This document shows, one piece after another, positions 42,614-60,034 of a stretch of 64,000 bases of DNA; position 1 is the stretch's first letter; the number at the start of each line of letters is the position of its first letter. The DNA is taken from the NCBI RefSeq assembly GCF_026427355.1, contig NZ_CP102665.1:742501-806500 (forward strand), written 5' to 3'. This DNA comes from Sphingobium sp. JS3065. Its GTDB lineage: Bacteria; Pseudomonadota; Alphaproteobacteria; Sphingomonadales; Sphingomonadaceae. The notes beneath the pieces are model-generated. The model made no database searches. It saw only the letters and a list, made by a program, of their open reading frames with translations, and was not told the origin of the DNA. A program made the translations under genes and the position numbers.

Positions 42614-43510
42614 ATGCGTCTGGGTTTGAAGGCCAAGCTGACCATCGCCGTCGGGCTGACGGCCGCTTGCGCCTTTCTGGCCATGGGCGTCAGGGAATTG
42701 CGGAGCGCTTCCGCCGCCACCGGAGAGGGTCGCACCGCCGCGCCCGCGAAGAAGGATGCGCCAACCGCGCTGCTGGTGCAGGCGGCGCGGGCGATCCGCA
42801 CCGGGGAGACGATCACCGCCGCCATGATCCGCAACGCGGCGGGCGATCCGGCGCGCTATCCCTATGCGGCGACATCCGCCGAAGTGGTGGGGAAAGTGGC
42901 GACGCGGGACATTCCCCTGCGCGCCCTGATCGCCCGCGAAGCGGTGGGGATGGAGAGCAATCTGGCCATTCGCGTGCCCATGGGGATGCGCGCCGTCAGC
43001 ATCGACACGACGGCGGAGATCGCCGTGGCCGGGCTGGTCCGGCCGGGCGACCGGGTGGACGTGCAGGTCGTCTATCCGGGCGCCGACGCGATCAGCGGGG
43101 CGCGGGGGTCCGGGCGCAGCCGGGCGCAGCCCTTGTTGCAGATGGTGCAGGTGCTGGCGGTGGGCGAGGTCGTCGTCGGGGCGCAGCAGGCGTCGGGGGT
43201 GGACAGGGCGCTCGCCTCCCCTCCCCCGCCTGCGCGGACGGTGACGCTGGCCTTGACGCCGGAGCAGGTGTCGGCGCTGTCGCTGGCGAAGAATATCGGG
43301 GCGTTGACGCTGTCGCTGCGCAATCCGGCGGACAGCGCGCAGGTGGCGGTGGCGGTCGCCGCTTCGGCGGGGGTCGAGCCGGCGGCGGCGGCAAGGGTGG
43401 CGGTTCCCGCGCCCGCGCCCCGCGCCGTTCCCCGCCGGACGCCTCATGCCATTGAGCTGGTCGTGGGAGACCGGCGCGAGACCATCTATTCGGGGAGCGG
43501 CGGGCGTTGA
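42614..43510 (+). CDS. cpaB: Flp pilus assembly protein CpaB
   Basis: This protein of 298 residues has an N-terminal membrane segment (LTIAVGLTAACAFLAMGV), a SAF domain (AARAIRTGETITAAMIRNA) and an RcpC/CpaB core (MGMRAVSIDTTAEIAVAGLV, RPGDRVDVQVVY). CpaB acts in the periplasm with the CpaC secretin of the Flp (Tad) pilus machine. It overlaps cpaC by four bases. The C-terminal tail is Ala/Pro rich. Confidence 0.93.
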   Translation: MRLGLKAKLTIAVGLTAACAFLAMGVRELRSASAATGEGRTAAPAKKDAPTALLVQAARAIRTGETITAAMIRNAAGDPARYPYAATSAEVVGKVATRDIPLRALIAREAVGMESNLAIRVPMGMRAVSIDTTAEIAVAGLVRPGDRVDVQVVYPGADAISGARGSGRSRAQPLLQMVQVLAVGEVVVGAQQASGVDRALASPPPPARTVTLALTPEQVSALSLAKNIGALTLSLRNPADSAQVAVAVAASAGVEPAAAARVAVPAPAPRAVPRRTPHAIELVVGDRRETIYSGSGGR

Positions 43511-44676
43511 GGCATTTTGTGACCCTGATCGCGCTTGCCCTGCCCATGACGGCGGCGGCGGAGACGGCGCTGCATGTGAAGCAGCAGCGCACCCTTTCCT
43601 ACCCCCGCGCCATCGGGCGGGTCGAGGTGGACCGGGAGGGCGTGCTGTCCATCGCCGCGCCGTCCGCCCGGTCGTTGCGGCTGACGGCGATTGGCGAAGG
43701 GGAAGCGACCGTCAGCGTCTTTGGCGGCGATGGCGGTTTGATCGCGCGGGAGCCGGTGCGGGTGGCGGCGGATGCGGCTGCAAGCGCGCCGGTCGTCCGG
43801 GCGGGCGAGCAGGTGGTGGCGGTCGACGTGCAGTTCGCCGCCGTGTCCACGACGACGCTGAAGGCGCTGGGGTTCAATTTTTCCAAGCTGTCCGGCGACA
43901 TTCAGGGGGCCATCGTTTCGCCCAGCAGCCTGGGCAGCGCGTCCTTCAATCCCGACGGCCTGTCGCTGGAGGCGAGCGCGCCGATCCAGAACGCCTTCAA
44001 CCTGTTCCTTTCCGCGCCCAACAGGGGGATCGGGGCGGTGCTGAGCGCGCTGTCGTCCAACGGGCTTTCGCAACTATTGGCGCAGCCGACCCTGCTGGTG
44101 CGGTCCGGCGAGCAGGCGAGTTTCCTGGCCGGGGGCGAGTTCCCAGTGCCGGTGCCGCAGGTTTCGGGATCCGGCAATACATTGTCCATCCAGTATAAGG
44201 AATTCGGGGTGCGCTTGTCGGTCACGCCCTTCGTGTTGTCGAAGGACCATATCGTGCTGAAGATCGCGCCGGAGGTCAGCGAACTCGACTATAATAATGG
44301 CGTGCAGTTGCAGGGCTATGTCGTGCCGGGGCTGCGGCGGCGGTCGGCGGAGACAACGGTCGAACTGGGCAGCGGGCAGAGTTTCGTCATCGCGGGCCTC
44401 AGCTATTCCAGCCAGACGGTGACGAAGGAAAAGGCCCCCCTGCTGGGTGACATTCCGGTGCTGGGCGCCTTCTTCAAGCGGCAGCAGAACCAGAAGGAGA
44501 AGCAGGAGCTGATCATCGTCGCCACGCCCCGGCTGGTGGGACCGGTGAAGGCGGAGGAGATGCCGCCCCTGCCCGGCGCGGCGACGGCTGGGGTCGACCC
44601 CGGCATTGGCGACATGATTTTGGGCACGGACGGGCTGGACCAGTCGAGCGCGCCCCTTGGCGTGGTGAGGCGCTGA
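43507..44676 (+). CDS. cpaC: Flp pilus secretin CpaC (RcpA)
   Basis: This 389-residue outer-membrane secretin starts with TTG at 43507 inside the cpaB stop (TTGA) and has a signal peptide (MRHFVTLIALALPMTAAAET). A GTG at 43519 is an alternative start. The pilus-secretin N-terminal domain precedes the secretin core: AQPTLLVRSGEQASFLAGGE, FPVPVPQ, and GLSYSSQTVTKEKAPLLGDI. It is the outer-membrane exit of the pilus. Confidence 0.94.
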   Translation: MRHFVTLIALALPMTAAAETALHVKQQRTLSYPRAIGRVEVDREGVLSIAAPSARSLRLTAIGEGEATVSVFGGDGGLIAREPVRVAADAAASAPVVRAGEQVVAVDVQFAAVSTTTLKALGFNFSKLSGDIQGAIVSPSSLGSASFNPDGLSLEASAPIQNAFNLFLSAPNRGIGAVLSALSSNGLSQLLAQPTLLVRSGEQASFLAGGEFPVPVPQVSGSGNTLSIQYKEFGVRLSVTPFVLSKDHIVLKIAPEVSELDYNNGVQLQGYVVPGLRRRSAETTVELGSGQSFVIAGLSYSSQTVTKEKAPLLGDIPVLGAFFKRQQNQKEKQELIIVATPRLVGPVKAEEMPPLPGAATAGVDPGIGDMILGTDGLDQSSAPLGVVRR

Positions 44677-44677
44677 C

Positions 44678-46075
44678 ATGGCGGCGATATATCTGCTGTC
44701 GGTCGACCGGATGCTGGCACGGCGGATCGGCGAGGCCATGAGCGAACGCGCGACTGTCGAACTGGTGCAGTCGATAGAGCGGGAGGCGCTGGCCGGGCCG
44801 TGCCTGATCGTCATCGACCGGGCGGCGATCCCGCCGGATCGGGCCTTGTCCGCCGCGATTGCGACCGTGGTGGAGAATGCCGGCGGGCGGGCCGTGGTGC
44901 TGGCGACCGGGGAGATGGAGGCGGAGCCGTTGCTGCGCGCCATCCGGGCGGGGGCGGACGATGTCATTCCCCGCGACGGCGAGGGGGCGGAGATCGCCGC
45001 CGTGCTGGCGCGGCTGCTGAACGATGCGGTGGGGGACCGGGGCCATCGGGGGCGGTTGACGCTGCTTCTGGGGGCGGACCGGGACGCCTGCGCGATGGTG
45101 GCGACCGACATGGCGATTGCGGCGGGACGCGGTTCGACCCTGCTGGTCGATTGCACTTTGCCGACCAGCGCGGCGGCGACCTATCTCGATTTGAGGGTCG
45201 ATTATGGGCTGGCTTCGGCGGTGGGCGACAGGGACCGGCTGGACGCCAGCCTGCTGGCCAGCGCGGTGGCGCGGCATGGGCCGAGCGGGCTGATGCTGCT
45301 GACCTTCGACGGCGGGACCGGGGTGGAGCCGGCGGGGCTGACGCCCGGCGATCTGGCGGCGCTGATCCGGCTGTTGCGCGGCTGTTGCGACCATGTGGTG
45401 CTGAATGCCGGGAGCCTGCGCCATGGCGGGTTGCTGCGCGAGGTGGTGGCGGATGCCAACCAGGTGGAGCTGCTTTGCGGCCAGTCGATTCGGGAGATAG
45501 AGGCTTGCCGCCGGTTGCTGGACCGGATCGGGGCGGAGCGCGGCCAGGTGGAGGCGATGCGGCTGCTGGTCTGGGATCATCTGCCCGGCGTGCTGCTGGA
45601 CGGGCGGCGGATGGCGGATGCATTGGGCGTCGGGTCGGTGATGGCGTTGCCGGTGGATCGGGCGCGGATGCGCAACGGGTTGAACGCCGGGCGGCCGCTG
45701 GCGGTGGGGCTGCCGGGCGGGGCGGATGATGGCGGCGTCAGCGCGGTGCGCGGGCATTTGCTGGCGGCGCGGGGGCGCTGGGCGGAGGCGGCGGATTTTT
45801 ATGAACGGGCGGAGCGCGCAAGGCCTGCGGATGCGTTGCTGCGCAATGCATGGGGCTATGCGCTGCTGCGCGCCGGGCGGGCGGAGGCGGCGATAGAGGC
45901 GTTGCGCGGGGCAAGCGACCTGGCGCCGCAAAGCGCGGTCATCCGCAACAATCTGCTGCTGGCGCTGATGGTCGGCGGGCGGGGCGCGGAGGCTGAGGCG
46001 GGGTTGCGGCGCATCGATGGGACGTTGCGGCGGAAGCTGGCGGCCGAGGCTGTCCGGATCGGAAAGGGAGGCTGA
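44678..46075 (+). CDS. cpaE: TadZ/CpaE-like pilus localisation protein with C-terminal TPRs and no Walker A
   Basis: This 465-residue protein corresponds in position to cpaE/tadZ. The N-terminus is receiver-like (IYLLSVDRMLARRIGEAMSE). The ParA-like middle keeps LLVDCTLPTSAAATYLDLRV, but the usual GxKGGxGxS/T loop reads LLLGADRDACAMVATDMAIA, so ATP binding looks lost. The last 120 or so residues hold TPR-like helices (LLAARGRWAEAADFYERAER, ALLRAGRAEAAIEALRGASD). It starts two bases after cpaC. The likely role is polar or complex localisation of the pilus. Confidence 0.85.
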   Translation: MAAIYLLSVDRMLARRIGEAMSERATVELVQSIEREALAGPCLIVIDRAAIPPDRALSAAIATVVENAGGRAVVLATGEMEAEPLLRAIRAGADDVIPRDGEGAEIAAVLARLLNDAVGDRGHRGRLTLLLGADRDACAMVATDMAIAAGRGSTLLVDCTLPTSAAATYLDLRVDYGLASAVGDRDRLDASLLASAVARHGPSGLMLLTFDGGTGVEPAGLTPGDLAALIRLLRGCCDHVVLNAGSLRHGGLLREVVADANQVELLCGQSIREIEACRRLLDRIGAERGQVEAMRLLVWDHLPGVLLDGRRMADALGVGSVMALPVDRARMRNGLNAGRPLAVGLPGGADDGGVSAVRGHLLAARGRWAEAADFYERAERARPADALLRNAWGYALLRAGRAEAAIEALRGASDLAPQSAVIRNNLLLALMVGGRGAEAEAGLRRIDGTLRRKLAAEAVRIGKGG

Positions 46076-46078
46076 TCG

Positions 46079-46279
46079 ATGATGATGCTGTTGGTGATGC
46101 TGGCTTCCCCTGCCCCCGCGCCGGTGGAGAGCGAGGCGCGCCGGGTGGTCGAGTGGCAGTTGAAGGCGGCGGCCCGGACTGAGGCTGAATTGTCGGCGGA
46201 AGAGGCTGCGCGGATTCGGGGGCTTTATCTGGAGTCCATCGGGCGGCGGGTCGAAAAAGCGCCGGATGCGGGGCGATGA
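46079..46279 (+). CDS. Small predicted exported protein of the Tad cluster, unknown
   Basis: This 66-residue protein lies between cpaE and the tadG-like gene, with a hydrophobic start (MMMLLVMLASPAPAP) and a charged helical rest (EARRVVEWQLKAAARTEAEL). A ribosome site (GAAAGGGAGG) precedes it and its stop overlaps the next start (ATGA), so it is likely to be translated. No family is recognised. It may be a periplasmic pilus accessory protein. Confidence 0.68.
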   Translation: MMMLLVMLASPAPAPVESEARRVVEWQLKAAARTEAELSAEEAARIRGLYLESIGRRVEKAPDAGR

Positions 46280-48072
46280 GGGTGTGGAGGCGCCGCCAGT
46301 TCCTGCGCAGGGGCAGTCGGGCGAGGATCGGGTCGCTCTGGCGCGATCGGTCGGCGGCTGTGGCGGCGTTGGGGGCGGTGTTGATCGGGGCGGCGGGATT
46401 CGCGCTGGATGCCGGGCTTTATTATGTGGGCGAACGCGATTTGCGGGCGGCGACCGACGCCGCCGCGCTGGCCGCCGCCATGAATCCGGCGCAGGCGGCG
46501 GCGCGGGCGCGGGACAGCCTCAGCCGCAACGGCTATGACCCGGCTATTCTCCGCTCGGTCGAATGGGGGCGTTATTGCGCCGACGCCGGGTTGAGCGCGG
46601 CGCAGCGTTTCGACGCCAGCATGACGCTTTGCCCCGGCAATGGGCGGGTGAATGCGGTGCGCATCCGCACGGGGAAGCCCGCACGGCAGTTTCTGATGCG
46701 CGTGCTGGGACCGGCCAATCCGCTGCCCGATCTTTCCGCCGGGGCCACCGCGGCGCGCATCGATGAGGCGGGGGTCGGCATCACGTCCGGCGTGCTGACC
46801 GTCACCAACGCCTTGGTGAACGGCGTCAACGACCTGCTGGGCGCTTTGCTGGGCATCACGCTGCGGCTTTCCACCGCCGATGTCGAGGCGTTGATGGCCA
46901 GCAATGTCGATGCGGGGCTGTTCTTCGACGCGCTGGCGCAGCGGGTGGGGGAAAGCGGAACCTATGCCGACCTCACCGACCGGACCGTGGGCTTGCGGGA
47001 TCTGCTCCATGCCGCCGCCAGCGCCGCCGACAATGCATCGACCGCCGCCACGCTGAACCTGGTCGCGGGGCAGGTCGGCAATGGCTATGCCGTGCCGCTG
47101 AAGGGGCTGTTTGGCCTGGGCGTATGGAAGAATATGCCGGTGGGCGGCGCGGACGGGAAACCCGCCTTGCGCGCCGGGATCAACGCCTATCAGCTTTTTT
47201 CCTTCGCGGTGCAGGCGGGCAATGGCCGGGTCGACCTGTCGAACGCCGTCGGCACCGTCGCGCCGGGCAGCAGCGTGTTGCTGGCGGCCATGGCGACCGG
47301 TCCGATGGACAGGCCGCGATTTTCCTTCGGCCCGGCGGGGGAGACCAGCGTCGCGACGTCGGCTGTGCGGCTGCAACTGGATGTCGGCATCAGGAACGTC
47401 ACATTGCTGGGCGTCCCGCTGGTGTCGGTCAACCTGCCGGTGACGATCGATATCGCGGCGGCGCAGGGCCAGGTGAGCGCCATCGACTGCCCTGATACAG
47501 CCGAGCAGGCGCGGGACATGCGCGTCACGGTTCAGGCCAGCAGCGGCCTGGTCAACGCCTATGTGGGCGCCCTGCCAGCCGGTGCGATGACGCGGCCCAT
47601 GCCCGCTCTGTCCGCCGCCGATGTGCAGCCCGTCCAGATCGTCAACGCCCTGGGCGTCCTGACCGTGGACAGCCGCGCCGTGGCGCAGCCGGTGATGGGC
47701 AATAGCGGCGCGCTGGTCTTCGGCCCCGGCGGGCAGGGCATGATCGGCCGTCCGGGATCGCCCGGCACGCCTGCCAGCATCGGCAATGGATCGCAGGTCG
47801 GGCCGTTGCTGACGTCGCTGGTCGGCAGCCTTGCCGCGTCGGATGGATTGCAGGTGCAGTTGCTGGGTCTATGCCTTCCGACCGTTTGCGAGACGACCAG
47901 GGCGCTCGCCCGGTCGCAACTGCTGAGCAGCGTCGTCAATCCCATCGCCGCGCTGGTCGGCACCACCATCGATCCGCTGGTGACAAATCTGCTCGCGGCG
48001 CTGGGCATCCAGCTTGGCCATGCGACCGTCTGGGTCACGGGCGCGCGCTGCGGGGTGCCGGTGCTCGTGTGA
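46276..48072 (+). CDS. tadG: TadG-like pilus assembly protein
   Basis: This 598-residue protein has a cytoplasmic basic start, one membrane segment (VAALGAVLIGAAGFALDAGL) and the TadG N-terminal pattern YYVGERDLRAATDAAALAAA. It is followed by a long periplasmic region without a recognisable von Willebrand A MIDAS motif. In Tad systems TadG helps anchor or regulate the pilus. The ATG overlaps the stop of the small upstream gene. Confidence 0.85.
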   Translation: MRVWRRRQFLRRGSRARIGSLWRDRSAAVAALGAVLIGAAGFALDAGLYYVGERDLRAATDAAALAAAMNPAQAAARARDSLSRNGYDPAILRSVEWGRYCADAGLSAAQRFDASMTLCPGNGRVNAVRIRTGKPARQFLMRVLGPANPLPDLSAGATAARIDEAGVGITSGVLTVTNALVNGVNDLLGALLGITLRLSTADVEALMASNVDAGLFFDALAQRVGESGTYADLTDRTVGLRDLLHAAASAADNASTAATLNLVAGQVGNGYAVPLKGLFGLGVWKNMPVGGADGKPALRAGINAYQLFSFAVQAGNGRVDLSNAVGTVAPGSSVLLAAMATGPMDRPRFSFGPAGETSVATSAVRLQLDVGIRNVTLLGVPLVSVNLPVTIDIAAAQGQVSAIDCPDTAEQARDMRVTVQASSGLVNAYVGALPAGAMTRPMPALSAADVQPVQIVNALGVLTVDSRAVAQPVMGNSGALVFGPGGQGMIGRPGSPGTPASIGNGSQVGPLLTSLVGSLAASDGLQVQLLGLCLPTVCETTRALARSQLLSSVVNPIAALVGTTIDPLVTNLLAALGIQLGHATVWVTGARCGVPVLV

Positions 48073-48145
48073 AAATCAGGCGGCGGGCGCATCCCCTCCC
48101 CGCCCGCCGCCATTCGCCATCCGGAGGGGGTAGAGGAGAATGATC

Positions 48146-48325
48146 ATGAAGAAACTGGGACGGTTGATCGCCAGGCTGAAGCGCGACCAAAGCGGCCTGA
48201 CCGCCGTGGAATATGCCGTGCTGGGCGCGGTGGTGGTGGCCGCCATCGTCGCGGTGGGCGCCAATTTTCAGACGCAACTGGGCGCGGCCTTCACGGCCAT
48301 GTTCAACAGCATCCCGCAGGGCTGA
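48146..48325 (+). CDS. flp: Flp-family type IVb pilin
   Basis: This 59-residue prepilin has a basic leader (MKKLGRLIARLKRDQSG), the Flp processing site G17 followed by LTAVEY with Glu at +5 and Tyr at +6, then a hydrophobic helix AVLGAVVVAAIVAVGANFQT. It should be cleaved by a TadV/CpaA peptidase to make the pilus subunit. The ATG at 48146 is favoured over 48140 because AGAGGAG is then seven bases away. Confidence 0.94.
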   Translation: MKKLGRLIARLKRDQSGLTAVEYAVLGAVVVAAIVAVGANFQTQLGAAFTAMFNSIPQG

Positions 48326-48331
48326 TACGCC

Positions 48332-48760
48332 ATGCCGGGGCGGGTGCGCCGCCTGGCGGCATGCAACAGGGGGCTGGCGGCGCTGGAATTCGCGCTGCTG
48401 GCGCCCGCGCTGCTGATGCTGGTCTTCGCGATCGTGCTCTATTCATTCTATTTCGCCGCGCTGATGGGCGTGCGCCAAGCCGCCGTCGAGGGCGCCCGCG
48501 CCGCCGTGGCGGGTCTTTCCGCCGCCGAGCGCGAGGCGCTGGCGCGCAGCCGGGCGCAGGCGGTGATCGACGGCTATGGCACGCTGCTGGCGGCGGGCGG
48601 CGGGCCGGTCATCGCCGCCGCGCCCGACGCGACCGGCACATTCCGGGTGCGGGTGAGCTATAATATGAGCGGCAGTCCGATGATGCGCTACGCCGCCTTC
48701 GTTCCCATGCCGTCGCCCACGGTCAGCGCCAGCATCATCGTCACCAATGGGAGCTATTGA
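48332..48760 (+). CDS. tadE: TadE-like pseudopilin
   Basis: This 142-residue protein has a TadE-like N-terminus (CNRGLAALEFALLAPALLML) with the conserved Glu of type IV-like prepilins, one membrane helix, and a C-terminal region expected in the periplasm. It starts seven bases after flp and ends directly before the peptidase-like gene. TadE proteins are minor pseudopilins needed for Flp pilus assembly. Confidence 0.88.
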   Translation: MPGRVRRLAACNRGLAALEFALLAPALLMLVFAIVLYSFYFAALMGVRQAAVEGARAAVAGLSAAEREALARSRAQAVIDGYGTLLAAGGGPVIAAAPDATGTFRVRVSYNMSGSPMMRYAAFVPMPSPTVSASIIVTNGSY

Positions 48761-49210
48761 ATGAATGGAGCGTCCTTCATCGGCAGCGCGCTGATGATCC
48801 TGCTGTTGTTGCCGGTGCTGGTCCTGCATTGGGAGGGGCGCGCGGTGGCGGATCGGCTGTACGGGCTGATCGCGCTTGGCGGCGTTGGTTTCGCGGCGAT
48901 TTTGCACGGGGTTGCGGGGATGATGCTGGCGGCGGGGATCGGCCTTGCCTGCCTGTCGCTGCTGTCGTCGGCTGTCGCCGGGATCAGCCTGCTCTGGCGG
49001 CTGAGGCTGCTGACGGGCGGGCATATCAAGCTGATCGCGGCGGGCGCGACATGGTTGAGCGCAAGCGGGGCGGTGCTGATGCTGGGGTTGGCGGCGGCGT
49101 TGTTCGTGCTGGCCGCCATGATTTTGCGTATACGCAAAACGGCCGATCCCCGGCCCGACATGGCGGGAATCGCCGCCATCGCCCTGCTGTCGGCGCAGCT
49201 TATGACATGA
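48761..49210 (+). CDS. Prepilin peptidase (TadV/CpaA, A24) homologue lacking both catalytic Asp
   Basis: This 149-residue membrane protein has four to five helices and a TadV-like layout. The place of the first catalytic Asp in the usual DLRTRRIPN motif reads LHWEGRAVADRLY (His23). The GxGDxK motif reads TGGHIKLIAAGATWLS (His88), which keeps Lys and the LIAA context but not Asp. It therefore looks like an inactive or altered family member. The assignment rests on position, topology and this motif, so an unrelated small membrane protein cannot be fully excluded. It overlaps the convergent parB-like gene by 11 bases. Confidence 0.65.
   Translation: MNGASFIGSALMILLLLPVLVLHWEGRAVADRLYGLIALGGVGFAAILHGVAGMMLAAGIGLACLSLLSSAVAGISLLWRLRLLTGGHIKLIAAGATWLSASGAVLMLGLAAALFVLAAMILRIRKTADPRPDMAGIAAIALLSAQLMT
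49122..49139. promoter_or_regulatory. Perfect 18-bp palindrome TTTTGCGTATACGCAAAA
   Basis: The site lies inside the last part of the peptidase-like gene, about 60 bases from the 3' end of the parB-like gene. It is the most symmetrical copy of a motif that recurs at 51540, at 53986 and, as half-sites, at 42462-42508 and 50211. It may bind a protein such as the ParB-family product nearby. Confidence 0.55.
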
Positions 49211-50198
49211 GCGGCGTGGCGCGCACCGCGACGATGGTTTCGCGCAGCCGCGCCAGCAATTCGTCCAGATCGGCGTCCTCCGCGATGCTGAGGTCGACCG
49301 TCAGGCCGCCGCCGCGGCTGGGTTTGGCGCGGCCGATGCGCGCGCCGCCCGCCATGATCGCGATGTCGCGGGCCTCCTCCTGCGATTGGGGCATGGCGGC
49401 TTCGCGCAGCCGGGCCAATACCGTGGCGGGCGGGATCAGGCGGTCGCCTTCGCGGGCGAGCGCCTGCTGCTGCTCCCCGATCAATTGCGCTTCGGCGATC
49501 ATCCGCCCGCGCTGTCCGGCCTGCCGCAGCAGCGGAGTCAGCAATTCGGAATAGCGCACCCGCAATTCATCCCTGGTGGCGAAGGCGTTGATCACCTCCT
49601 CCGGCAATTGCGCCAGGGCGATCAGGCGGCTCAACTGGCTGTTCGACAGGTTCAAGGCTTCGGCCATGCGCGATTGCACGCCGCCATAGAAGCGGTCGAC
49701 CGCATGCTGGTAACTGCGCGCCCGGTCCAGTTCGCTGATGTCCGCCCGCTCGCGATTTTCGATGTCGGCGAGGCGGAAGGCTTCCTCGTCCGACAGGTCC
49801 ACCACAAGGGCCGTCAGCCGCAGGTCGGTCCGCCCATTATGGTTGAGCCAGCCCACCGCGAAACGGCGGCGGCTGCCGACCAGAAGCTGATAGGGCCGGT
49901 CCGAACCGGGCGGATTGAGGCGCACCAGCACGGGGATGCGGTTGCCGCCTTCGCTGGCGATGGACTCGATCAGCGAGCGGCAGGAGTCGGCGGTCAGGCC
50001 CGGCTGGTCGCGGGGATTGCCGTCCCAGACGGAACATTCGTCCGGCTGGATCGCAATCGCCCCGCCCGGTCCCGCATCCCTGCCCGCGAAATGGGCCAGC
50101 CGTTGGTCGAGACGGCTGAGTTCATCCCGATCGGCGGGGGCTTTGGCGGCGGGTTCATAGGACAGGGTCGCCAATATGTCGCGGATGAAGCGGGCCAT
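49200..50198 (-). CDS. ParB/RepB/Spo0J-family DNA-binding protein (orphan, plasmid type)
   Basis: This protein of 332 residues has a ParB N-terminal domain (NPRDQPGLTADSCRSLIESI, then IPVLVRLN, VGSRRRFAVGWLNHNGRTDL) and the family ENRERADISELDRARSYQHA. A helix-turn-helix follows (RMAEALNLSNSQLSRLIALA). No parA lies next to it, so it is an orphan. Orphan ParB-like proteins such as VirB of Shigella can act as transcription regulators. Half-sites of the local TTTTGCG motif lie just before its start. Confidence 0.9.
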   Translation of the reverse strand: MARFIRDILATLSYEPAAKAPADRDELSRLDQRLAHFAGRDAGPGGAIAIQPDECSVWDGNPRDQPGLTADSCRSLIESIASEGGNRIPVLVRLNPPGSDRPYQLLVGSRRRFAVGWLNHNGRTDLRLTALVVDLSDEEAFRLADIENRERADISELDRARSYQHAVDRFYGGVQSRMAEALNLSNSQLSRLIALAQLPEEVINAFATRDELRVRYSELLTPLLRQAGQRGRMIAEAQLIGEQQQALAREGDRLIPPATVLARLREAAMPQSQEEARDIAIMAGGARIGRAKPSRGGGLTVDLSIAEDADLDELLARLRETIVAVRATPLMS

Positions 50199-50295: not shown

Positions 50296-51480
50296 CTAGA
50301 AGCGCCGTCCGATCGTCAGCGTCGCGGCGTGGACGTGGCGGTCGGAACTATATTCGCCCGCATAGCCCAGGCGGACGGTCGTGCGGCTGTTCCACGTCGC
50401 GCTGAGGGCGGCGTTCACCAGCCCGGCGTCCCGCGCCAGCCGCGTGGGGCGCAGGGTGAAGATCGGCAGGTCGCGGGTGGCGAAGCGGGCCTCTATCCGG
50501 CTGTCGGGTCGGGCGCGCAATTCCCGCTGCCATTGCGCTTCCACCGAGGGGCGCAGGGTCCAGCCGCCTTGCGCGACATTGGCGGAGAGGCGCGCGCCCA
50601 GCGCGCCGCGCAGGGATTTGACGCGGAAGGGGGCGACTTGCAGCGCGGCAGGGCCGCCATTTTCGGTGAAGCCGCTGACATCGGCATAGCGATAATGCAG
50701 GCCGGCAAAGGGCTGGAGCCGGAACGCGCCTGCGCGCAGCATCGCGCCCGCTTCGCCGGAGGCCGCCCAGCCGTCGCCGTCGACCGGGGCCACCATCCGG
50801 CCGGTGAAGCCGGGCCAGCCGATCTGGCGGCGCAGCTTATATTCCGACAGGGTGTAGGATGCCGTCGCGTCGGCGTAGAAGCGGCCGTCGCTATAGCTGA
50901 GATAGGGGCCGATCTGGCTGTTGAACTGGCTGATGCGCGGGCGCTGCGCCGGGTCGAGCCGGGCGTCGATGCCGTCGATGCCCAGCGTCGCGCCGACGAT
51001 CAGTCCGCGCACGGGCTTCACGTCGATGGCGAAGCGGAGCGAGCGGCTGTCGCTCTCCGCTTCGGGGCGGTCGATGCGGCCCTTGTAGGTCGCCTGTTTG
51101 ACGCCGCCGGTCAGCATCATGGTGATGGTGCGGTCGCCGCTCACCGGAACATCGGCGGGGGCGTCCAGGGCGATACTGCGCCGTTCAGCGAGCCAGGAGC
51201 GGATTTCCCGGTCGGCGGCGTCCATCGACTGGATCGACAGGCGAGGCAGCAGGGAATAGCTGCGCGGCGAAAGCTGGCCCAGCGCGTCGGCGCGGGCCGC
51301 CGCCATGGGCAGGGCGTCGATGGACGCCAGCATCGCGGCGCGGTCGCTGGAGGGGGCGGTGGGGATCGCGTCCAGCATCGCGCCGACGGCGGCCTCGCCC
51401 GGCGTCGCGGCATAGGGGGCGTAGGGACCGGCGAGGGCAGGCTGGGCAGTGAGCAGCAGCAGGGCAGCAGCGCGCTTCAT
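50296..51480 (-). CDS. Outer-membrane autotransporter-type beta-barrel protein
   Basis: This protein of 394 residues has a signal peptide (MKRAAALLLLTAQPALAGPY), a short N-terminal segment and a barrel domain of about 280 residues resembling the autotransporter barrel (GDRTITMMLTGGVKQATYKG, AGAFRLQPFAGLHYRYADVS, GWTLRPSVEAQWQRELRARP), ending in TIGRRF with terminal Phe. No long passenger is present, so it may act as a stand-alone barrel. The start at 51480 is chosen for the signal peptide. It lies between the parB-like and collagen-like genes. Confidence 0.82.
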   Translation of the reverse strand: MKRAAALLLLTAQPALAGPYAPYAATPGEAAVGAMLDAIPTAPSSDRAAMLASIDALPMAAARADALGQLSPRSYSLLPRLSIQSMDAADREIRSWLAERRSIALDAPADVPVSGDRTITMMLTGGVKQATYKGRIDRPEAESDSRSLRFAIDVKPVRGLIVGATLGIDGIDARLDPAQRPRISQFNSQIGPYLSYSDGRFYADATASYTLSEYKLRRQIGWPGFTGRMVAPVDGDGWAASGEAGAMLRAGAFRLQPFAGLHYRYADVSGFTENGGPAALQVAPFRVKSLRGALGARLSANVAQGGWTLRPSVEAQWQRELRARPDSRIEARFATRDLPIFTLRPTRLARDAGLVNAALSATWNSRTTVRLGYAGEYSSDRHVHAATLTIGRRF

Positions 51481-51682: not shown

Positions 51683-53097
51683 TCAGTTGCCGCCGATCAG
51701 CCCGCCGAGCAGGCCGGTCACGGGAGCGGTCGTCTGGCCCGATCCGGTCGCCGGTGCGAGCACGCCGTTCACAGGCCCGTGACGGGGGCAAGGGCGTTGC
51801 CGGTCCCCTCCCCCGCGCCCAGCAGGTTGTTGACCACGCCCGTGACCGGCGCGAGCGGCGATCCATTTTCCGCTCCGGGCAATGCGGGCGTCAGGCTGTT
51901 GACGGTGTCGAGCAAGGGCGCGGTGACGCTGCCGACCGCGCTGGTGACGGCGGCGACCACGGGCGCGACGGCGCTCGTCACCTGGTTGACGGCGGTTTCG
52001 GCCTGAGGCCCCAGCAGGCCGCCTGCCAGATTGCCGACAGGTTGCAGACCGGCCTCCACCCCGGCGGCCGTCGTCGGCACGGTCAGGTCGACCAGATTGC
52101 CTTGCGACAGGACGCCGACCGTCGCCAACTGTCCGGTCACCGCGCCGCCGTCCGACGGCAGCAGGTTGACGCCGACCAGCGTGGCCGCCGTGGACGGGCC
52201 GGTCAGCGCATTGCCGCCGACATTGGCGCCCACCAGCGGGCCGCCCAGCGCGGCGGAGGGATCGCCGCCGACGCCGCCCAGCACGCCCGTCAGGCCGCCG
52301 ACCGCATTTTCAACCAGCCCCGTCACGGGGGCGAGCACGCCATTCTCACCGACCAGCGGGTCGGTGACGGGCGACAGCGCGCCATTGACCGTGCCGAGCA
52401 ATGGCGCGGTGAGCTGACCGACCGTAGAGGTGACCGCCGCCACCGTGGGCGACAGGCCGTCGGTAAGCTGCGTCACCGCCTGCCCCGCCGGAGCGCCGAG
52501 CAACGTCCCGGCGAGCGTGCCTACCGGGGCCAGTCCCTGCTGAACCTGCTGGGCGGTAGTCGGCAGGTCGACCTGCGCGACCGTGCCGTCCCCCGTCAGC
52601 AGGTCGACCGTCGCCACGCTGCCGGTCGCGGGCGTTTCGCCCGGCAGCAGATTGACGCCGATCAGCGAACCGGGGCCGGTGGGACCGACCAGCGGCTGGT
52701 TGCCCACCGATGCCCCGATGATCGACCCGCCGGTCGTGGGGCTGGTGGGGCCACCGGGACCGGTAGGACCGCCAGGACCGGTGGGGCCGGATGGACCTCC
52801 TGGACCGGTGGGACCGGCAGGCCCGGTCGGACCGCTCGGACTGGTGGGACCGGTTGGGCCGCCTGGCCCCGAAGGTCCGGTGGGGCCAGTCGGGCCACCC
52901 GGACCCGTCGGGCCGGAAGGGCTGGTCGGGCCGCTGGGACCGCTTGGTCCGGAGGGACCGGACGGAGACTGGCCGCCGCCGCCCGCGCCTATGTCGAACC
53001 CGACTCCATCGGCGCAGGCGCTGAGCAAAAGAAGAGGTATCGCCGTGGCGCACAGCAGATAGCGCCTTCCCGATCGAACCGGTCCGTGACGTGGCAT
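51683..53097 (-). pseudogene. Collagen-like lipoprotein gene with a -1 frameshift near its 3' end
   Basis: The start at 53097 gives a lipoprotein signal ([16 protein letters not shown], lipobox LSAC, Cys28). Residues about 47-121 are roughly 25 Gly-Pro-Ser/Thr/Gly triplets with three Gly-to-Ser interruptions, a collagen-like stalk of the BclA type. Two tandem repeats of about 150 residues follow ([20 protein letters not shown] and [20 protein letters not shown]). Translation stops at 51769-51771 after ALAPVTGL, but the next frame continues [20 protein letters not shown] and ends at 51683. One missing base near 51772 explains this. The product may still be functional (442 residues). Confidence 0.8.
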
Positions 53098-53400
53098 TGC
53101 AAGACTCCCTGTTTCCCTGCGATCAGATCGCAACAGGTGCAAATTAAGCCGGGCAATCCCTATCGCCTCGTCAAGAAGAAACCGGTCTGGTTGAAACATA
53201 TGGCGGACGGCCAATCCGCCTTGCCGGGGCACGCAACCGGCTGTCCCGGCATGCGCAAAGCCGGTCGGAAGATCCGGAATTGCCCGATGACGCGCCGTTT
53301 TCGGGGCTTTTCAGGGGCGTCCTATCTGCAAAATACGGCGCGGGGCAAGCAAATCGCGCCGGTCGTCCATTCCACCGAAACGGTTCATTTTAAGCGGGCA
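53098..53400. other. Leader region of the collagen-like gene, with a 15-bp palindrome
   Basis: TGCGATCAGATCGCA (53118-53132) is a perfect palindrome 21-35 bases before the collagen-like start. It may be an operator or 5' leader hairpin. The remainder up to the oxygenase stop at 53401 shows no credible gene. Confidence 0.45.
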
Positions 53401-53961
53401 TCACCGCCATCTCGGCCCTTCGATCCAGCTCACCAGGCTGCGCCGCACGCCCTTCGTCACGGGCAGGACGCGATGCTGGAGGAAGGAGGGAAAGATCAGC
53501 ATGCTGCCGCGTGGCGCGAAATTCGCGCCCGGTTGCTGAAGGCCGAAAAATTCGAAGGCGCCGCCCTCATAATCTTCCGGATCGGACAGTTGCACCACCA
53601 CCGACAATTTCCGGTCATAGGGGCGGGACGATTCCAGCCAGACATCCTGGTGCCAGTCATATTTGCCCTGCGCCCGGCCATGATATTCGGTATATTGCAG
53701 GTCATAGGGTCCGGCGATGTCGATGCCGAAATTGGTGCGGTTCGACGAATGGACGAACTGCATCAGCCGGTCGGCTATATCCTTGTCGCGATGGACGTCC
53801 AGCCAACTGACGGTGGACGAGCGATAGCCATGATCCGGGCGCGCGCCCTGGGCGAAGCCGACGGTGGCGCTTTGCGGCGCATAGAGCGCGGCGCGCTTGA
53901 CGATGGCGTCGCATTCGGCCCCGGTCAGCGCCGACGGCCATACCTCCCACACATTGTTCAT
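53401..53961 (-). CDS. 2-oxoglutarate/Fe(II)-dependent oxygenase, prolyl 4-hydroxylase-like (PKHD family)
   Basis: This 186-residue cytoplasmic dioxygenase has the double-stranded beta-helix facial triad HxD...H: His104 and Asp106 in YDWHQDVW, and His163 in FLQHRVLPVTKG, with Arg173 in GVRRSLVSW for 2-oxoglutarate. The sequence RPDHGYRSSTVSWLDVHRDK is also typical of the P4H-like class. It sits between a collagen-like lipoprotein gene and a TpsB transporter gene, all minus strand. Hydroxylation of Pro in the Gly-Pro-Ser/Thr repeats is an attractive but unproven role. Confidence 0.88.
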   Translation of the reverse strand: MNNVWEVWPSALTGAECDAIVKRAALYAPQSATVGFAQGARPDHGYRSSTVSWLDVHRDKDIADRLMQFVHSSNRTNFGIDIAGPYDLQYTEYHGRAQGKYDWHQDVWLESSRPYDRKLSVVVQLSDPEDYEGGAFEFFGLQQPGANFAPRGSMLIFPSFLQHRVLPVTKGVRRSLVSWIEGPRWR

Positions 53962-53985
53962 CGTCTCAAATTCCTGCGCATCTGT

Positions 53986-54003
53986 TTTTGCGTGTTCGCA
54001 AAA
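53986..54003. promoter_or_regulatory. Palindrome copy TTTTGCGTGTTCGCAAAA upstream of the oxygenase gene
   Basis: The seven-base arms TTTTGCG and CGCAAAA are perfect around a four-base centre. The site fills the 49-base gap between the tpsB-like stop and the oxygenase start. It is the same motif as at 49122 and 51540. Confidence 0.6.
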
Positions 54004-54010
54004 GGACGGA

Positions 54011-55693
54011 TCAGAATGTCCGCCCCAGCCCGAAGAAAAAGCGCGCCTTGCGGCCATAGGCCGGGCCGGGGCGCTTGACCGGCACGGCGACTTCGGCGCT
54101 GGCCCGCCATTTCGGCCCCAGGCCGATCCGCACCCCTCCCCCCGCCGACGCAAGGCTGTAATCCTGCGCGGCGAGCCTGTAGAAGGGCCGGGCGGTCGTG
54201 TGCGCCCATGCGCCGTCGGCGGCGACGAACAGGGCGGTCCCCTTCGGCAAGGGCGATTTCGCGGCCAGCGACCATGTGAGTTCCGCGCTGGCCGCGACCC
54301 CTTGCTCCGCCGTCAGCGCGCCGGTGCGGAAGGCCATGCCCGCGCCCCGGCCGCCCAGCGGGAAGCGCTCTGTCACCGGCAGCTGGTCCTTCGAATATTG
54401 CCCCTTGATCGAAGTTCTGAGGCTGATTTTGTCGCCGATCCCCTTCACCGCGACGGCCTGAACATTGATCTTGGCGAAGCCGGTTTCGGAAAAGCCGGTA
54501 AAGGGCCTGGCGCCCAGCACATTCAAGCCCCGGCTGACCACCGCCGACAGGGCGTAACCATCCTTTGCGTCGGCGCGCGACCAGGATGCGCCCAGGCGCA
54601 GCGCCCTGGACCGGTAATCGCCGAAGCGGATGTCCAGGAAATAATTGTCGCTGTCGATGCCGTCGACCGCCGCCGTGACCGACATGTTGGTTCTGGCGGA
54701 CCGCAGGACCGGATAGCTGAGCGCAATCCCGGCCAGCGTCGCCTCCCCTTCCGTCCTGCTGTCCCGCGAGCGGCTCTGCACATGGGCGGCCTGCGCGCTC
54801 AGGGTCAGGCCGTCGCTGCCGATGGGCGTGCCGTGGCTGAGCGCATAATATTGATAGCGGTCGGGATAGAAGGGTAGATAGCCGGATATCCGCGTGCTGT
54901 CCCCTTCCCGCGCCAGGCCGTTGACCGTGACCGACATCTGCGCCTGTACGCCGTCCACGACATTGCTGACGCCGCTATTGTCGATGGTAAGGCCGATCTG
55001 CACCTGCTTGCGCTTGACGATCAGGTCGATCCGCAGGTCGCCGGGCGCCCCCGATTGCGCCATCCGGGCGTCCACCGTCTGCCCCGGAATGTCGCGCAGC
55101 AGGGACAGGGTCCGTTCCAGCGTGCTCTTGCGCAGCGGCGCATCGCGCATCAGGCGGCGCATATGCGCGGCGATCAGGCCCGTCGGCATGCTGGGCGACA
55201 TGCCCGCCAGGCGATAATCCCTCACCCGTCCCTCGACCAGCCGCACGGTCAGGACGCCGCCAGACGCCGCCTGCGGAGGGATGGACACGGAATAGTAGGC
55301 GATGTCGCTGCCCGCATAGACAGCGGCGATCGCATTTGCGACGGCTTGCAGCGTCTCGCCGGTCAGGGGGCGGCCGATCTGGGATGCGGTGGCGGCGTCC
55401 AGCCGCGCGGCGGACAGCGTCGTCCCGTCATAATGCAGCCGCGTCAGCAGAAGCCGAGTGGCGGACACCGGCGCGGGCGCGACCTGGACCAAGGGCGCGG
55501 GGCGGGCGGGCGCGGCGGACGGGGCCGAGATCCGCGGCTCCAGCCGGTCGGTGCGGTCGCGGTCGATGATCGGCTGGTTCGACACGCCTTCCTGCGCGCC
55601 CGCCGGAACCGCCAGCATCAGACCAAGGCCGATGAAGACTCCCCATGCGGCGCGTCCGCACCGCGCCGCCCCCGCCTTGCACTTCTTCCACAT
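54011..55693 (-). CDS. TpsB/ShlB/FhaC-family outer-membrane transporter (two-partner secretion)
   Basis: This protein of 560 residues has a signal peptide (GVFIGLGLMLAVPAGAQEG), a Pro/Ala-rich linker, a POTRA-type domain (LTRLHYDGTTLSAARLDAAT, GGVLTVRLVEGRVRDYRLAG), a ShlB domain (LRIDLIVKRKQVQIGLTIDN) and a 16-strand barrel that ends FFFGLGRTF. Such proteins export large TpsA proteins. No TpsA gene is visible in the window, so the nearby collagen-like protein or a distant gene may be the partner. Confidence 0.9.
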   Translation of the reverse strand: MWKKCKAGAARCGRAAWGVFIGLGLMLAVPAGAQEGVSNQPIIDRDRTDRLEPRISAPSAAPARPAPLVQVAPAPVSATRLLLTRLHYDGTTLSAARLDAATASQIGRPLTGETLQAVANAIAAVYAGSDIAYYSVSIPPQAASGGVLTVRLVEGRVRDYRLAGMSPSMPTGLIAAHMRRLMRDAPLRKSTLERTLSLLRDIPGQTVDARMAQSGAPGDLRIDLIVKRKQVQIGLTIDNSGVSNVVDGVQAQMSVTVNGLAREGDSTRISGYLPFYPDRYQYYALSHGTPIGSDGLTLSAQAAHVQSRSRDSRTEGEATLAGIALSYPVLRSARTNMSVTAAVDGIDSDNYFLDIRFGDYRSRALRLGASWSRADAKDGYALSAVVSRGLNVLGARPFTGFSETGFAKINVQAVAVKGIGDKISLRTSIKGQYSKDQLPVTERFPLGGRGAGMAFRTGALTAEQGVAASAELTWSLAAKSPLPKGTALFVAADGAWAHTTARPFYRLAAQDYSLASAGGGVRIGLGPKWRASAEVAVPVKRPGPAYGRKARFFFGLGRTF

Positions 55694-57733: not shown

Positions 57734-57963
57734 CCCTGTTTTGGGATAAAGGCGGCGCAATATTGGGTTCAGCGCATCCGGCTTTCATTTTTCATCTCGG
57801 ATCGGCATTTTGTCGAAACGGGTTGTTGTCGGCTAGGGGTTGTGGGGATTTAGGATTGAACGAACTCGCTGACGCTCGACTGGTGCCTGGGGGCTGGCGA
57901 GAATGACCCCCTGGTGGGAGGATTTGGTTGCTGAAGACCAACCCCTCACCAGGAGTTCATCCC

Positions 57964-58836
57964 ATGACAGACGTCACAGTAACGGTCAGCCCGCTGCGCC
58001 GTCGTATGATCGACGACATGAGCTTGCGCAACCTGTCCCCCGCCACGCAACGCTCCTATCTGCACGCGGTGACGAAGTTCAGTCGCTATTTCGGGCGATC
58101 ACCGGATCGGCTGGGGCCTGAAGATGTCCGCGCATTTCAGGTCTATCTGGTGTCGCAGGGCATTTCCTGGGGCTCTTTGAACCAGATCGTATGCGCGCTT
58201 CGCTTTTTCTACGGCGTCACGCTGGATCGGGCGGAGATCCCGGAGCGGATCGTCTATGCGCGCATGCCGCGCAAGCTGCCAACGATCCTGAGCGCCGACG
58301 AGGTCGTGCGCTTCCTGGAGGCGGTGCCATCATTGAAGGCGCGCGCCGCACTGACCACCGCCTATGCCGCAGGATTGCGCGCCTCTGAAGCTGCAAGTCT
58401 GAAGGTTACGGACATCGACAGCGACCGGATGGTGATCCAGGTTCGCCACGGCAAGGGCGCCAAGGATCGTACGGTCATGCTCTCGGCGCAGTTGCTTGGG
58501 ATCCTGCGGACTTATTGGCGGCTCGCCCACCCGCAGGATTTTCTGTTCCCCGGACGCAGCGCCGATACGCCGATCACCACGACCTGTCTTCACGCCGCCT
58601 GCCGGTCAGCCACCAAGGCGGCAGGATTGACCAAGCGGGTCAGCGTTCACACGCTGCGGCATAGTTTCGCGACGCACCTGCTCGAGAACGGGGTCGATAT
58701 CCGGATCATCCAGGTTTTGCTCGGGCACAGCCAGCTATCGACGACGGCGCGCTACACCCATGTCGCGACGACCACGATCGCCACGACTCAAAGCCCGCTC
58801 GACCGTCTCAGCCTGGACGTGGTGCCGCCCAGCTGA
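57964..58836 (+). CDS. Tyrosine recombinase/integrase of an IS91-type unit
   Basis: This 290-residue site-specific recombinase has a SAM-like core-binding N-domain (LSPATQRSYLHAVTKFSRYF) and a catalytic domain with Arg in AAGLRASEAASL, HxxR in HTLRHSFATHLLENG, His in LLGHSQLSTTARYTHV and the nucleophile Tyr in the same stretch. The start at 57964 (MTDVTVTVSPLRRRMIDDMS) follows the ribosome site CAGGAG. It is followed within ten bases by an IS91-type transposase. Such integrase-transposase pairs are typical of a subset of IS91-family elements. Confidence 0.92.
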   Translation: MTDVTVTVSPLRRRMIDDMSLRNLSPATQRSYLHAVTKFSRYFGRSPDRLGPEDVRAFQVYLVSQGISWGSLNQIVCALRFFYGVTLDRAEIPERIVYARMPRKLPTILSADEVVRFLEAVPSLKARAALTTAYAAGLRASEAASLKVTDIDSDRMVIQVRHGKGAKDRTVMLSAQLLGILRTYWRLAHPQDFLFPGRSADTPITTTCLHAACRSATKAAGLTKRVSVHTLRHSFATHLLENGVDIRIIQVLLGHSQLSTTARYTHVATTTIATTQSPLDRLSLDVVPPS

Positions 58837-58846
58837 GGCCGCCGCT

Positions 58847-60034
58847 GTGCGTCCGGAGCTGGAGGTGGCGGATATATTCCGCCGCCATGGCCCTCCTTAC
58901 CGCATTGCCCATGACGGCCACCTTGGCCGCGTTGAACGGCGCGTCATGGCGGCGATCGAGCTGTGCCGGACCCCAGCGCTCGGCGGCCATGTCGAGGCCT
59001 GCGACAACTGCGGCCATAGCCGGGTCTCGTACAATAGTTGCCGCAATCGGCACTGCCCAAAGTGTCAGGGGATCGCGCGCGAACGATGGCTGGCCGCGCG
59101 CGAAGCCGACCTTCTGCCGGTGCCCTATTTCCACGTCGTATTCACCGTGCCCGCCGAGGTTGCGGCGATCGCCTATCAAAACAAAGTTCTGGTCTACGCC
59201 ATCTTGTTCGACGCGGTGGCCGAGACGCTCAAGACGCTCGGCGCTGATCCCAAGCATCTCGGCGGCGAGCTCGGCTTTATCGCCATTCTTCATACCTGGG
59301 GGCAGACGCTCACGCACCATCCGCATATCCACTGCCTCGTTCCGGGCGGCGCACTGTCGGCCGACGGCTCCCGTTGGATCACCTGTAAACCGCGCTTCTT
59401 TCTACCGATCCCCGTGCTCTCGCGCCTTTTCCGCCGACTGTTCCTGGCGCGGCTACAGGCAGCGGATGAGGCCGGACGCCTGCAGTTCTTCGGGGCACTT
59501 GGCGGTCTCAGCGACAGCCGCGCCTTTGTCGCCACGCTCAGGTCGCTGCGCAAGATGTCCTGGGTGGTCTACGCCAAGCCGCCCTTTGGCTCACCGGCGC
59601 ATGTTCTCGCCTATCTGGGCCGCTACACCCACCGCGTCGCTATCTCCAACAGTCGTCTCGTCAGCATGGCCGATGCAACCGTCACCTTCCGTTGGCGCGA
59701 CTATCGGCATGGCAATGCCCAAAAGCATATGGCTTTGGCTGCCGACGAGTTTATTCGCCGGTTCCTGCTCCATACTCTGCCCGACCGCTTCCATCGCATC
59801 CGCCACTACGGTTTTCTCGCCAACGGGTGCCGTCGTGCCCGGCTTGCGACGATCCGCTCCCTGCTGGTGATTACGCGGCCGGTGACGTCCGACCACGACA
59901 TCGCCTTGCCACATCCCAAGTGCGCCGATTTCGATCCCACCGTCTGCCCATGTTGCGGCGGGACGTTACGGATCGTTGCGACAATGCCGCGCGATACGGC
60001 GTGGCGAGCGCGCGGACCGCCGGCAAAGCCATGA
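58847..60034 (+). CDS. IS91-family (HUH) transposase
   Basis: This protein of 395 residues starts with GTG at 58847, ten bases after the integrase stop. It has a zinc-finger N-terminus (CDNCGHSRVSYNSCRNRHCP then KCQ), the HUH motif HPHIHCLVPGG, and the catalytic Tyr region YLGRYTHRVAISN. It nicks DNA and transposes by rolling-circle replication. It appears intact. Confidence 0.92.
   Translation: MRPELEVADIFRRHGPPYRIAHDGHLGRVERRVMAAIELCRTPALGGHVEACDNCGHSRVSYNSCRNRHCPKCQGIARERWLAAREADLLPVPYFHVVFTVPAEVAAIAYQNKVLVYAILFDAVAETLKTLGADPKHLGGELGFIAILHTWGQTLTHHPHIHCLVPGGALSADGSRWITCKPRFFLPIPVLSRLFRRLFLARLQAADEAGRLQFFGALGGLSDSRAFVATLRSLRKMSWVVYAKPPFGSPAHVLAYLGRYTHRVAISNSRLVSMADATVTFRWRDYRHGNAQKHMALAADEFIRRFLLHTLPDRFHRIRHYGFLANGCRRARLATIRSLLVITRPVTSDHDIALPHPKCADFDPTVCPCCGGTLRIVATMPRDTAWRARGPPAKP

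Follow-up and report, generated by a model that had tools for sequence, protein, structure and literature searches.

In a 64,000-nucleotide stretch of the genome of Sphingobium sp. JS3065 (contig NZ_CP102665.1, positions 742,501 to 806,500; the whole stretch is called the window below), the gene of a collagen-like lipoprotein lies beside the gene of a 2-oxoglutarate (2OG)/Fe(II) oxygenase. This soil bacterium thus encodes a collagen-like lipoprotein and, adjacent to it, an enzyme of the type by which animal collagen is hardened, together with a TpsB-type transporter, and the question is whether the enzyme serves the collagen. We consider it probable that the locus encodes a collagen-like lipoprotein, a prolyl hydroxylase dedicated to it, and machinery for its export. 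The genes are co-inherited, and relatives of the oxygenase are recurrently paired with other collagens. The features concerned, in window coordinates, are the following:

54011..55693, minus strand: TpsB/FhaC-type outer-membrane transporter of 560 aa (Pfam ShlB PF03865, 4.6e-24; Omp85, 1.5e-11; POTRA_2, 2.3e-6; CdiB/FhaC sequence matches in the PDB)
53401..53961, minus strand: 2OG-Fe(II) oxygenase, prolyl-hydroxylase-like, of 186 aa (PF13640, 4.3e-15)
51769..53097, minus strand: collagen-like lipoprotein with lipobox LSAC and Cys28 (codon 53014-53016), from the translation and from homologues that share its N terminus and its C-terminal domain
52735..52968, minus strand: collagen-like tract, by count 22 Gly-Pro-X plus 4 Ser-Pro-X, hence 26 X-Pro-X triplets in all
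51683..51772, minus strand: C-terminal sequence of the lipoprotein continued out of frame, with 29 codons and then a stop in the +1 frame (translation, homologue comparison)
50296..51480, minus strand: beta-barrel of the autotransporter type, preceded by only a short N-terminal region (PF03797, 1.8e-43)
49200..50198, minus strand: ParB/SopB-like DNA-binding protein, a conserved neighbour (SoPB_HTH, 2e-12; matched in 23 of the 26 sphingomonad loci described below)

The order of transcription is TpsB, oxygenase, lipoprotein and barrel, with 49 bp between the first two genes and 303 bp between the oxygenase and lipoprotein genes. An earlier, sequence-only reading had described the first three as lying on one strand, followed by a lone barrel protein, and the Pfam matches and translations demonstrate that all four genes are real and lie on the minus strand. 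A scan for promoters and terminators gave no more signals than were obtained with shuffled sequences.

The lipoprotein and its collagen-like tract

Counted on the translation, the tract is formed by 26 consecutive X-Pro-X triplets: 11 Gly-Pro-Thr (GPT), 5 Gly-Pro-Ser (GPS), 5 GPG, 1 GPA, 3 SPS and 1 SPT. Twenty-two of these triplets start with Gly, and the longest unbroken run of them is 10. The sequence-only reading had reported about 25 Gly-Pro-Ser/Thr triplets at 52735-52959; the tract is indeed present, but GPT and GPS together number only 16, and its end is at 52968. It is the only site in the 64-kb window with a run of at least eight Gly-X-X triplets, and no such run was found in ten other sphingomonad stretches of 12-20 kb. 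Therefore, the tract is more than a chance occurrence. An antisense open reading frame (ORF) also appears collagenous at this position, because the strand opposite to GPX codons again encodes GPX. The minus-strand frame is the gene, since it has the lipobox and a conserved C-terminal domain.

The protein starts with a signal peptide with a lipobox and its Cys (LLLLSAC, residues 22-28), as read by eye from the translation, after which the tract follows; the homologues have a similar signal. At the other end, the lipoprotein frame stops at 51769. The earlier span had extended to 51683, and the sequence does continue to this position, but only in the +1 frame. The C terminus is longer in 18 of the 19 homologues examined, including the second copy in the same genome, and the 19th (L035) is truncated where its locus ends. 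The end of the lipoprotein about 29 residues early may be either an assembly error or a real allele. A structure model of the C-terminal domain had a predicted local distance difference test (pLDDT) score of 42 and was not used.

Active site and predicted fold of the oxygenase

The HxD...H...R set that had been noted in the oxygenase is intact: H104-x-D106, H163 and R173 are invariant in 67 aligned sequences. The enzyme thereby has the HxD...H iron triad and the basic 2OG residue in a double-stranded beta-helix that characterize the prolyl 4-hydroxylase (P4H) type. An RxS...W stretch is present as well (R47 invariant, S49 and W53 at least 90% in the 67 sequences), and profile alignment pairs it with RTSTGTW of 2jig; in Cr-P4H this stretch has a role in peptide binding. 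The AlphaFold2 model of the oxygenase (pLDDT 93.9) has a predicted prolyl-hydroxylase fold, the closest PDB folds being those of PPHD, the top match, vCPH, Cr-P4H and PHD2, all of them prolyl hydroxylases. No signal peptide was seen by eye.

Oxygenase and collagen genes are inherited together

Of the 94 genus genomes analysed, 15 encode the oxygenase and 16 the C-terminal domain of the lipoprotein. The collagen lipoprotein was found in all 15 genomes with the oxygenase and in one of the 79 without it (Fisher's test, 1.7e-16, with shared descent ignored); the additional gene, in genome G129, is located less than 1 kb from the end of a 6.6-kb contig. A lack of co-occurrence of the two genes in relatives had been named beforehand as one result that would refute the proposal that the oxygenase modifies the collagen, and this result was not obtained. 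The present genome (G000) and genome G173 encode two oxygenases each, with two each of TpsB and the lipoprotein. Intact orthologous TpsB genes (at least 58% identity, nearly full length) are present in the same 15 genomes, in 17 copies, and the barrel is present in 14 copies in 13 genomes, all within these 15. No Gly-X-X tract was found in 20 kb around the four other PF13640 genes of the JS3065 genome.

The second full cluster of this genome is located on a 308-kb contig (L021, G000:C3:30000-48000). In another genome, a TpsB orthologue broken by a stop, without oxygenase or collagen (G187:C6:75848-77101), is a remnant of a cluster since lost.

Of 119 genomes sampled from the family, four have the oxygenase (one of them as a 39% partial match) and two the lipoprotein C-terminal domain. 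A scan of genome contigs of named relatives yielded 47 loci, of which 26 are sphingomonad (L029-L053 and L055; 63-94% identity). A Gly-X-X tract of at least eight triplets is located within 5 kb of the oxygenase in 19 of these 26 loci, and the lipoprotein is present somewhere in the genome for 23. The genome-wide search was made for 13 loci, chosen because of the absence of a near tract, a contig end or special interest, and gave a match for seven. The gene order varies: the collagen gene may be located beyond the barrel and ParB genes on the other strand, or about 15 kb away (G061). The annotated set on pSRL2 of Sphingobium indicum B90A consists of TpsB, 2OG oxygenase, a hypothetical protein, an autotransporter and ParB. 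An EAL-domain gene, which hints at cyclic di-GMP control, lies between the collagen and barrel genes of S. herbicidovorans and of the second cluster in the present genome.

The pairing recurs with other collagens, in bacteria and in phages

Oxygenase-collagen pairs also exist outside the TpsB setting. In G061 (apparently Caenibius sp. WL), a second oxygenase gene is located about 100 bp from that of a protein with a secreted-like start (by eye) and 33 triplets at its C terminus. In an Erythrobacter metagenome-assembled genome (L024/L058), the gene of an oxygenase with 44-46% identity adjoins that of a collagen of 100 triplets. No TpsB match was found in the fetched flanks of either.

The viral set comprised the best 80 of at least 347 relatives, showing 40-57% identity to the oxygenase, and the tract filter excluded mostly-Gly or homopolymeric runs. 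A tract of at least 10 triplets is located within 3 kb of the oxygenase in 49 of the 80 loci, as compared with 3 of 70 control loci around UvsW, and 47 of the 49 tracts are upstream of the oxygenase on the same strand. When at least 3 kb of upstream sequence is available, the tract is present in 39 of 54 loci; after grouping at 80% identity, it is present in 21 of 33 groups. The control excludes 10 S-CAM9-like loci, in which UvsW lies beside the oxygenase (tract in 0 of 10 at 3 kb and in 7 of 10 at 8 kb). A place in the tail module could account for some of the viral enrichment, because UvsW is a single control gene and not a gene of that module. No tract was found beside a different phage 2OG gene (0 of 7 loci). 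S-CAM9-type loci have a tract in 10 out of 10 cases, and in phage S-CAM9 it sits in the annotated tail fibre. In viral locus L143 (57% identity), the oxygenase gene directly follows that of a collagen protein carrying the S74 chaperone domain that marks tail fibres. TpsB, the barrel and the lipoprotein C-terminal domain had no match in any of the 90 viral loci.

In phage S-CAM9 (L121, 7393-8558), two tandem 2OG oxygenases follow the Lys-rich collagen tail fibre, one perhaps acting on Pro and the other on Lys.

TpsB, the likely target residue and possible hitchhiking

The closest and most constant neighbour of the oxygenase in sphingomonads is TpsB, which is located directly upstream in 25 of the 26 loci, at 6-111 bp as judged by BLAST ends. 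The oxygenase might thus serve the TpsB pathway, modifying TpsB or another TpsB-exported protein, with the collagen being only a linked cargo gene. We regard this as unlikely, because the fetched flanks of the pairs in the second copy of G061 and in the Erythrobacter genome lack a TpsB match, as do all 90 viral loci. Weak matches to the two-partner secretion (TPS) domain (E up to 0.001) would favour it, being present in 7 of the 15 TpsB genomes and in 22 of the 79 others, but this difference is not significant (p 0.22). A TPS-domain protein as the partner of this TpsB was rejected: such proteins score above the cut-off in 2 of the 15 TpsB genomes as compared with 19 of the 79 others. The sequence-only reading had seen no TpsA nearby, which can be extended to the whole genome, as no TPS-domain protein above the cut-off is encoded in it; the single weak match is about 545 kb away and has its own ShlB/POTRA_2 gene beside it. 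Because TpsB is constantly found by the oxygenase and shows no association with TpsA, its likeliest task, as judged from gene neighbourhoods, would be to export the lipoprotein or display it on the surface. As a guess, the barrel may help in this.

The composition of the tracts bears on the residue that would be modified. Across 554 triplets from sphingomonads, Pro occupies X in 98%, and Y is Thr in 45%, Ser in 24%, Gly in 21% and Ala in 6%. In the phage tracts, GPT is the commonest triplet (1185 of 3419), with Pro in only 49% of the X positions and Lys in 17% of the Y positions. The X-position Pro is the most likely common target of the oxygenase, because Pro is nearly constant in X across the sphingomonad tracts and GPT is the commonest triplet in phages too. 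An action on the collagen at another residue or for another purpose, such as on Y-position Thr or Ser, on Lys in the phage relatives, or to provide a hydroxyl that is then glycosylated, is improbable to about the same degree as a service to TpsB: no residue but Pro is nearly constant in the sphingomonad tracts, the nearest folds are those of prolyl hydroxylases and, for the glycosylation variant, no glycosyltransferase gene was seen by eye in the ORF list around the cluster, although no dedicated search was made. The earlier caution that Pro is in the X and not the Y position was correct, but it need not count against function. Worm cuticle collagen contains X-position hydroxyproline. Moreover, peptide work by Bachinger's group reportedly showed that (Gly-Pro-Thr)10 forms no triple helix and that (Gly-4-hydroxyproline-Thr)10 does; if this is right, X-position hydroxylation would be what a GPT collagen needs.

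Many strains carry the cluster on a plasmid or a second replicon, and the genes of the cluster might be co-inherited on plasmids or islands without working together. The chances of this appear slightly lower still, because the set persists though its order and strand are rearranged, and because the pairing recurs with differently built collagens in separate lineages and in phages. Least likely of all is that the oxygenase belongs to the iron-uptake enzymes of the PiuC/YbiX type or to the prolyl hydroxylases of the EF-Tu type and is present here by chance: PiuC and Sbal_3634 are the best matches in a sequence search of the PDB, the EF-Tu hydroxylase PPHD is the best fold, and TonB-dependent receptor genes occur in L022, about 3 kb upstream of its TpsB gene, and in L024, at a distance of about 7 kb from the oxygenase, but the oxygenase is far below the cut-offs of all four NCBIfam PRK05467 models (51.2 vs 143, 31.4 vs 180, 28.3 vs 399 and 26.7 vs 336), no TonB receptor ORF was noticed by eye around the cluster in the window, and the distribution of the oxygenase in the genus tracks the collagen gene copy for copy.

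Where the association stops

Several observations weigh against a dedicated collagen hydroxylase. The case for it is built on genomic association and a predicted fold, and the sequence match of the oxygenase to PiuC/YbiX is stronger than that to P4H. The Pfam Collagen model PF01391 gave no match to the tract up to E 0.1; it does match the collagens of L023, L024 and viral L143. In sphingomonads, the linkage is partly due to descent and plasmid carriage, and no collagen protein was found in the genomes of L040, L048 and L055 (in the L055 contig, about 1.2 kb follow the oxygenase). A tract within 3 kb is absent from 31 of the 80 viral loci, 15 of which have 3 kb of upstream sequence. Of the 47 relative loci, 20 more distant ones (SAR116-type, Allosphingosinicella, Myxococcota and others; 36-51% identity) have no collagen tract, nine of them having less than 3 kb on one side. 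Likewise, no collagen was found near any of the 10 relatives in a 398-genome sample of the phylum or beside the four plasmid relatives fetched, out of 11 listed at below 60% identity.

On these last counts (0 of 10 and 0 of 4), distant relatives were ruled out as further collagen cases, which implies that the wider oxygenase family has other substrates; the association is confined to certain clades of it. In a tree, the collagen label is clustered (18 changes as compared with 44.5 in shuffles) and is spread over phage and sphingomonad branches. This tree omits L058 (the same locus as L024) and L075, and also L067 and L071 for their length; because long branches meet in it, it gives no direction for transfer between phage and host.

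The relative in Pelagibacter phage HTVC033P (L122) was also rejected as a collagen case, as it has no tract beyond a Gly-rich run of six triplets. In the SAR116-type oxygenase clade (L057, L059-L073), there is no tract in the available flanks, and no constant neighbour was noticed. The oxygenases of L054 and L056 (about 50% identity) lie beside asparagine-synthetase-like and nucleotidyltransferase-like genes (by eye), perhaps in a peptide natural-product cluster.

As for the surroundings of the cluster, Tad pilus genes adjoin it at 42614-49210 of the window (TadE and TadG by Pfam, CpaB/C/E-like by eye) and are near it in many relatives too. A few kb upstream of the cluster, at 57928-60034, there are integrase-like and transposase-like ORFs (by eye), consistent with mobility.

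Discussion

The idea that the oxygenase modifies the collagen is strengthened by the co-occurrence of the genes, by the recurrence with unrelated collagens and by the predicted fold. From these we still infer the chemistry and what surrounds it: the substrate, the Pro residue and carbon, the timing before export, the role of TpsB, the surface location and the function. The lipoprotein precursor would be synthesised in the cytoplasm, where the cytosolic oxygenase would hydroxylate the X-position Pro of its Gly-Pro-Thr/Ser triplets, favouring a stable triple helix once exported. The precursor would exit via Sec and be lipidated at Cys28, and TpsB, itself lacking a TpsA partner and perhaps aided by the orphan barrel, would bring or anchor the trimeric collagen stalk at the cell surface, where the stalk may act in adhesion or aggregation.

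The data suggest that some microbes hydroxylate their collagens. More tentatively, a Gram-negative and phage family of collagen prolyl hydroxylases may mature Gly-Pro-Thr/Ser collagens at the X-position Pro; its home may be in phages, where it would harden tail fibres, and sphingomonads may have acquired it and paired it with TpsB for surface display.

The system resembles several known ones and differs from each. The lipoprotein shares a Gly-X-Y stalk with Scl1/2, BclA, Bucl and Lcl, but has Pro in 98% of X, a C-terminal domain of its own, and a linked oxygenase and TpsB. The transporter has the ShlB and POTRA_2 domains of two-partner secretion (FhaC/CdiB with TpsA), but the adjacent TpsA is lacking. 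PPHD of Pseudomonas putida (4iw3), the best fold match at 19-20% identity, acts on EF-Tu, whereas the present clade follows collagen genes. The prolyl 4-hydroxylase of Bacillus anthracis (5hv0; 5v7y), a species whose own collagen is BclA, differs likewise, the PDB title of 5v7y giving EF-Tu as the target. The PKHD-type PiuC/YbiX enzymes (9ghl, 3dkq) are the best PDB sequence matches, but the oxygenase is below all their family cut-offs and has another genomic setting. vCPH of Paramecium bursaria chlorella virus 1 (5c5t), among the best fold matches with 22% identity over the aligned part, comes from a virus of a eukaryotic host and is not known to have a linked bacterial collagen.

According to passages of PMC8968730, bacterial collagens usually prefer Pro in X and Thr in Y, most bacteria are unable to produce hydroxyproline, and B. 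anthracis P4H acts on PPG peptides; a passage of PMC4565658 has it that bacteria lack a prolyl hydroxylase for their collagens. Passages of PMC9301287 report P4H genes in marine viruses, mention collagen in viral tail fibres and call the viral use of prolyl 4-hydroxylase cryptic, so that the idea of a phage link is not wholly new. No paper describing this cluster or collagen-linked phage oxygenases was found in the open-licence PubMed Central literature.

An enzyme that is small and soluble and has a collagen as its natural partner may be of use for recombinant collagen. If our interpretation is true, a group of environmental bacteria would have a dedicated, co-inherited collagen hydroxylase, which would change the stated view that bacteria lack one; part of the phage 2OG oxygenases would have a function; and the collagen chemistry would take place at the X position, unlike that of animals at the Y position.

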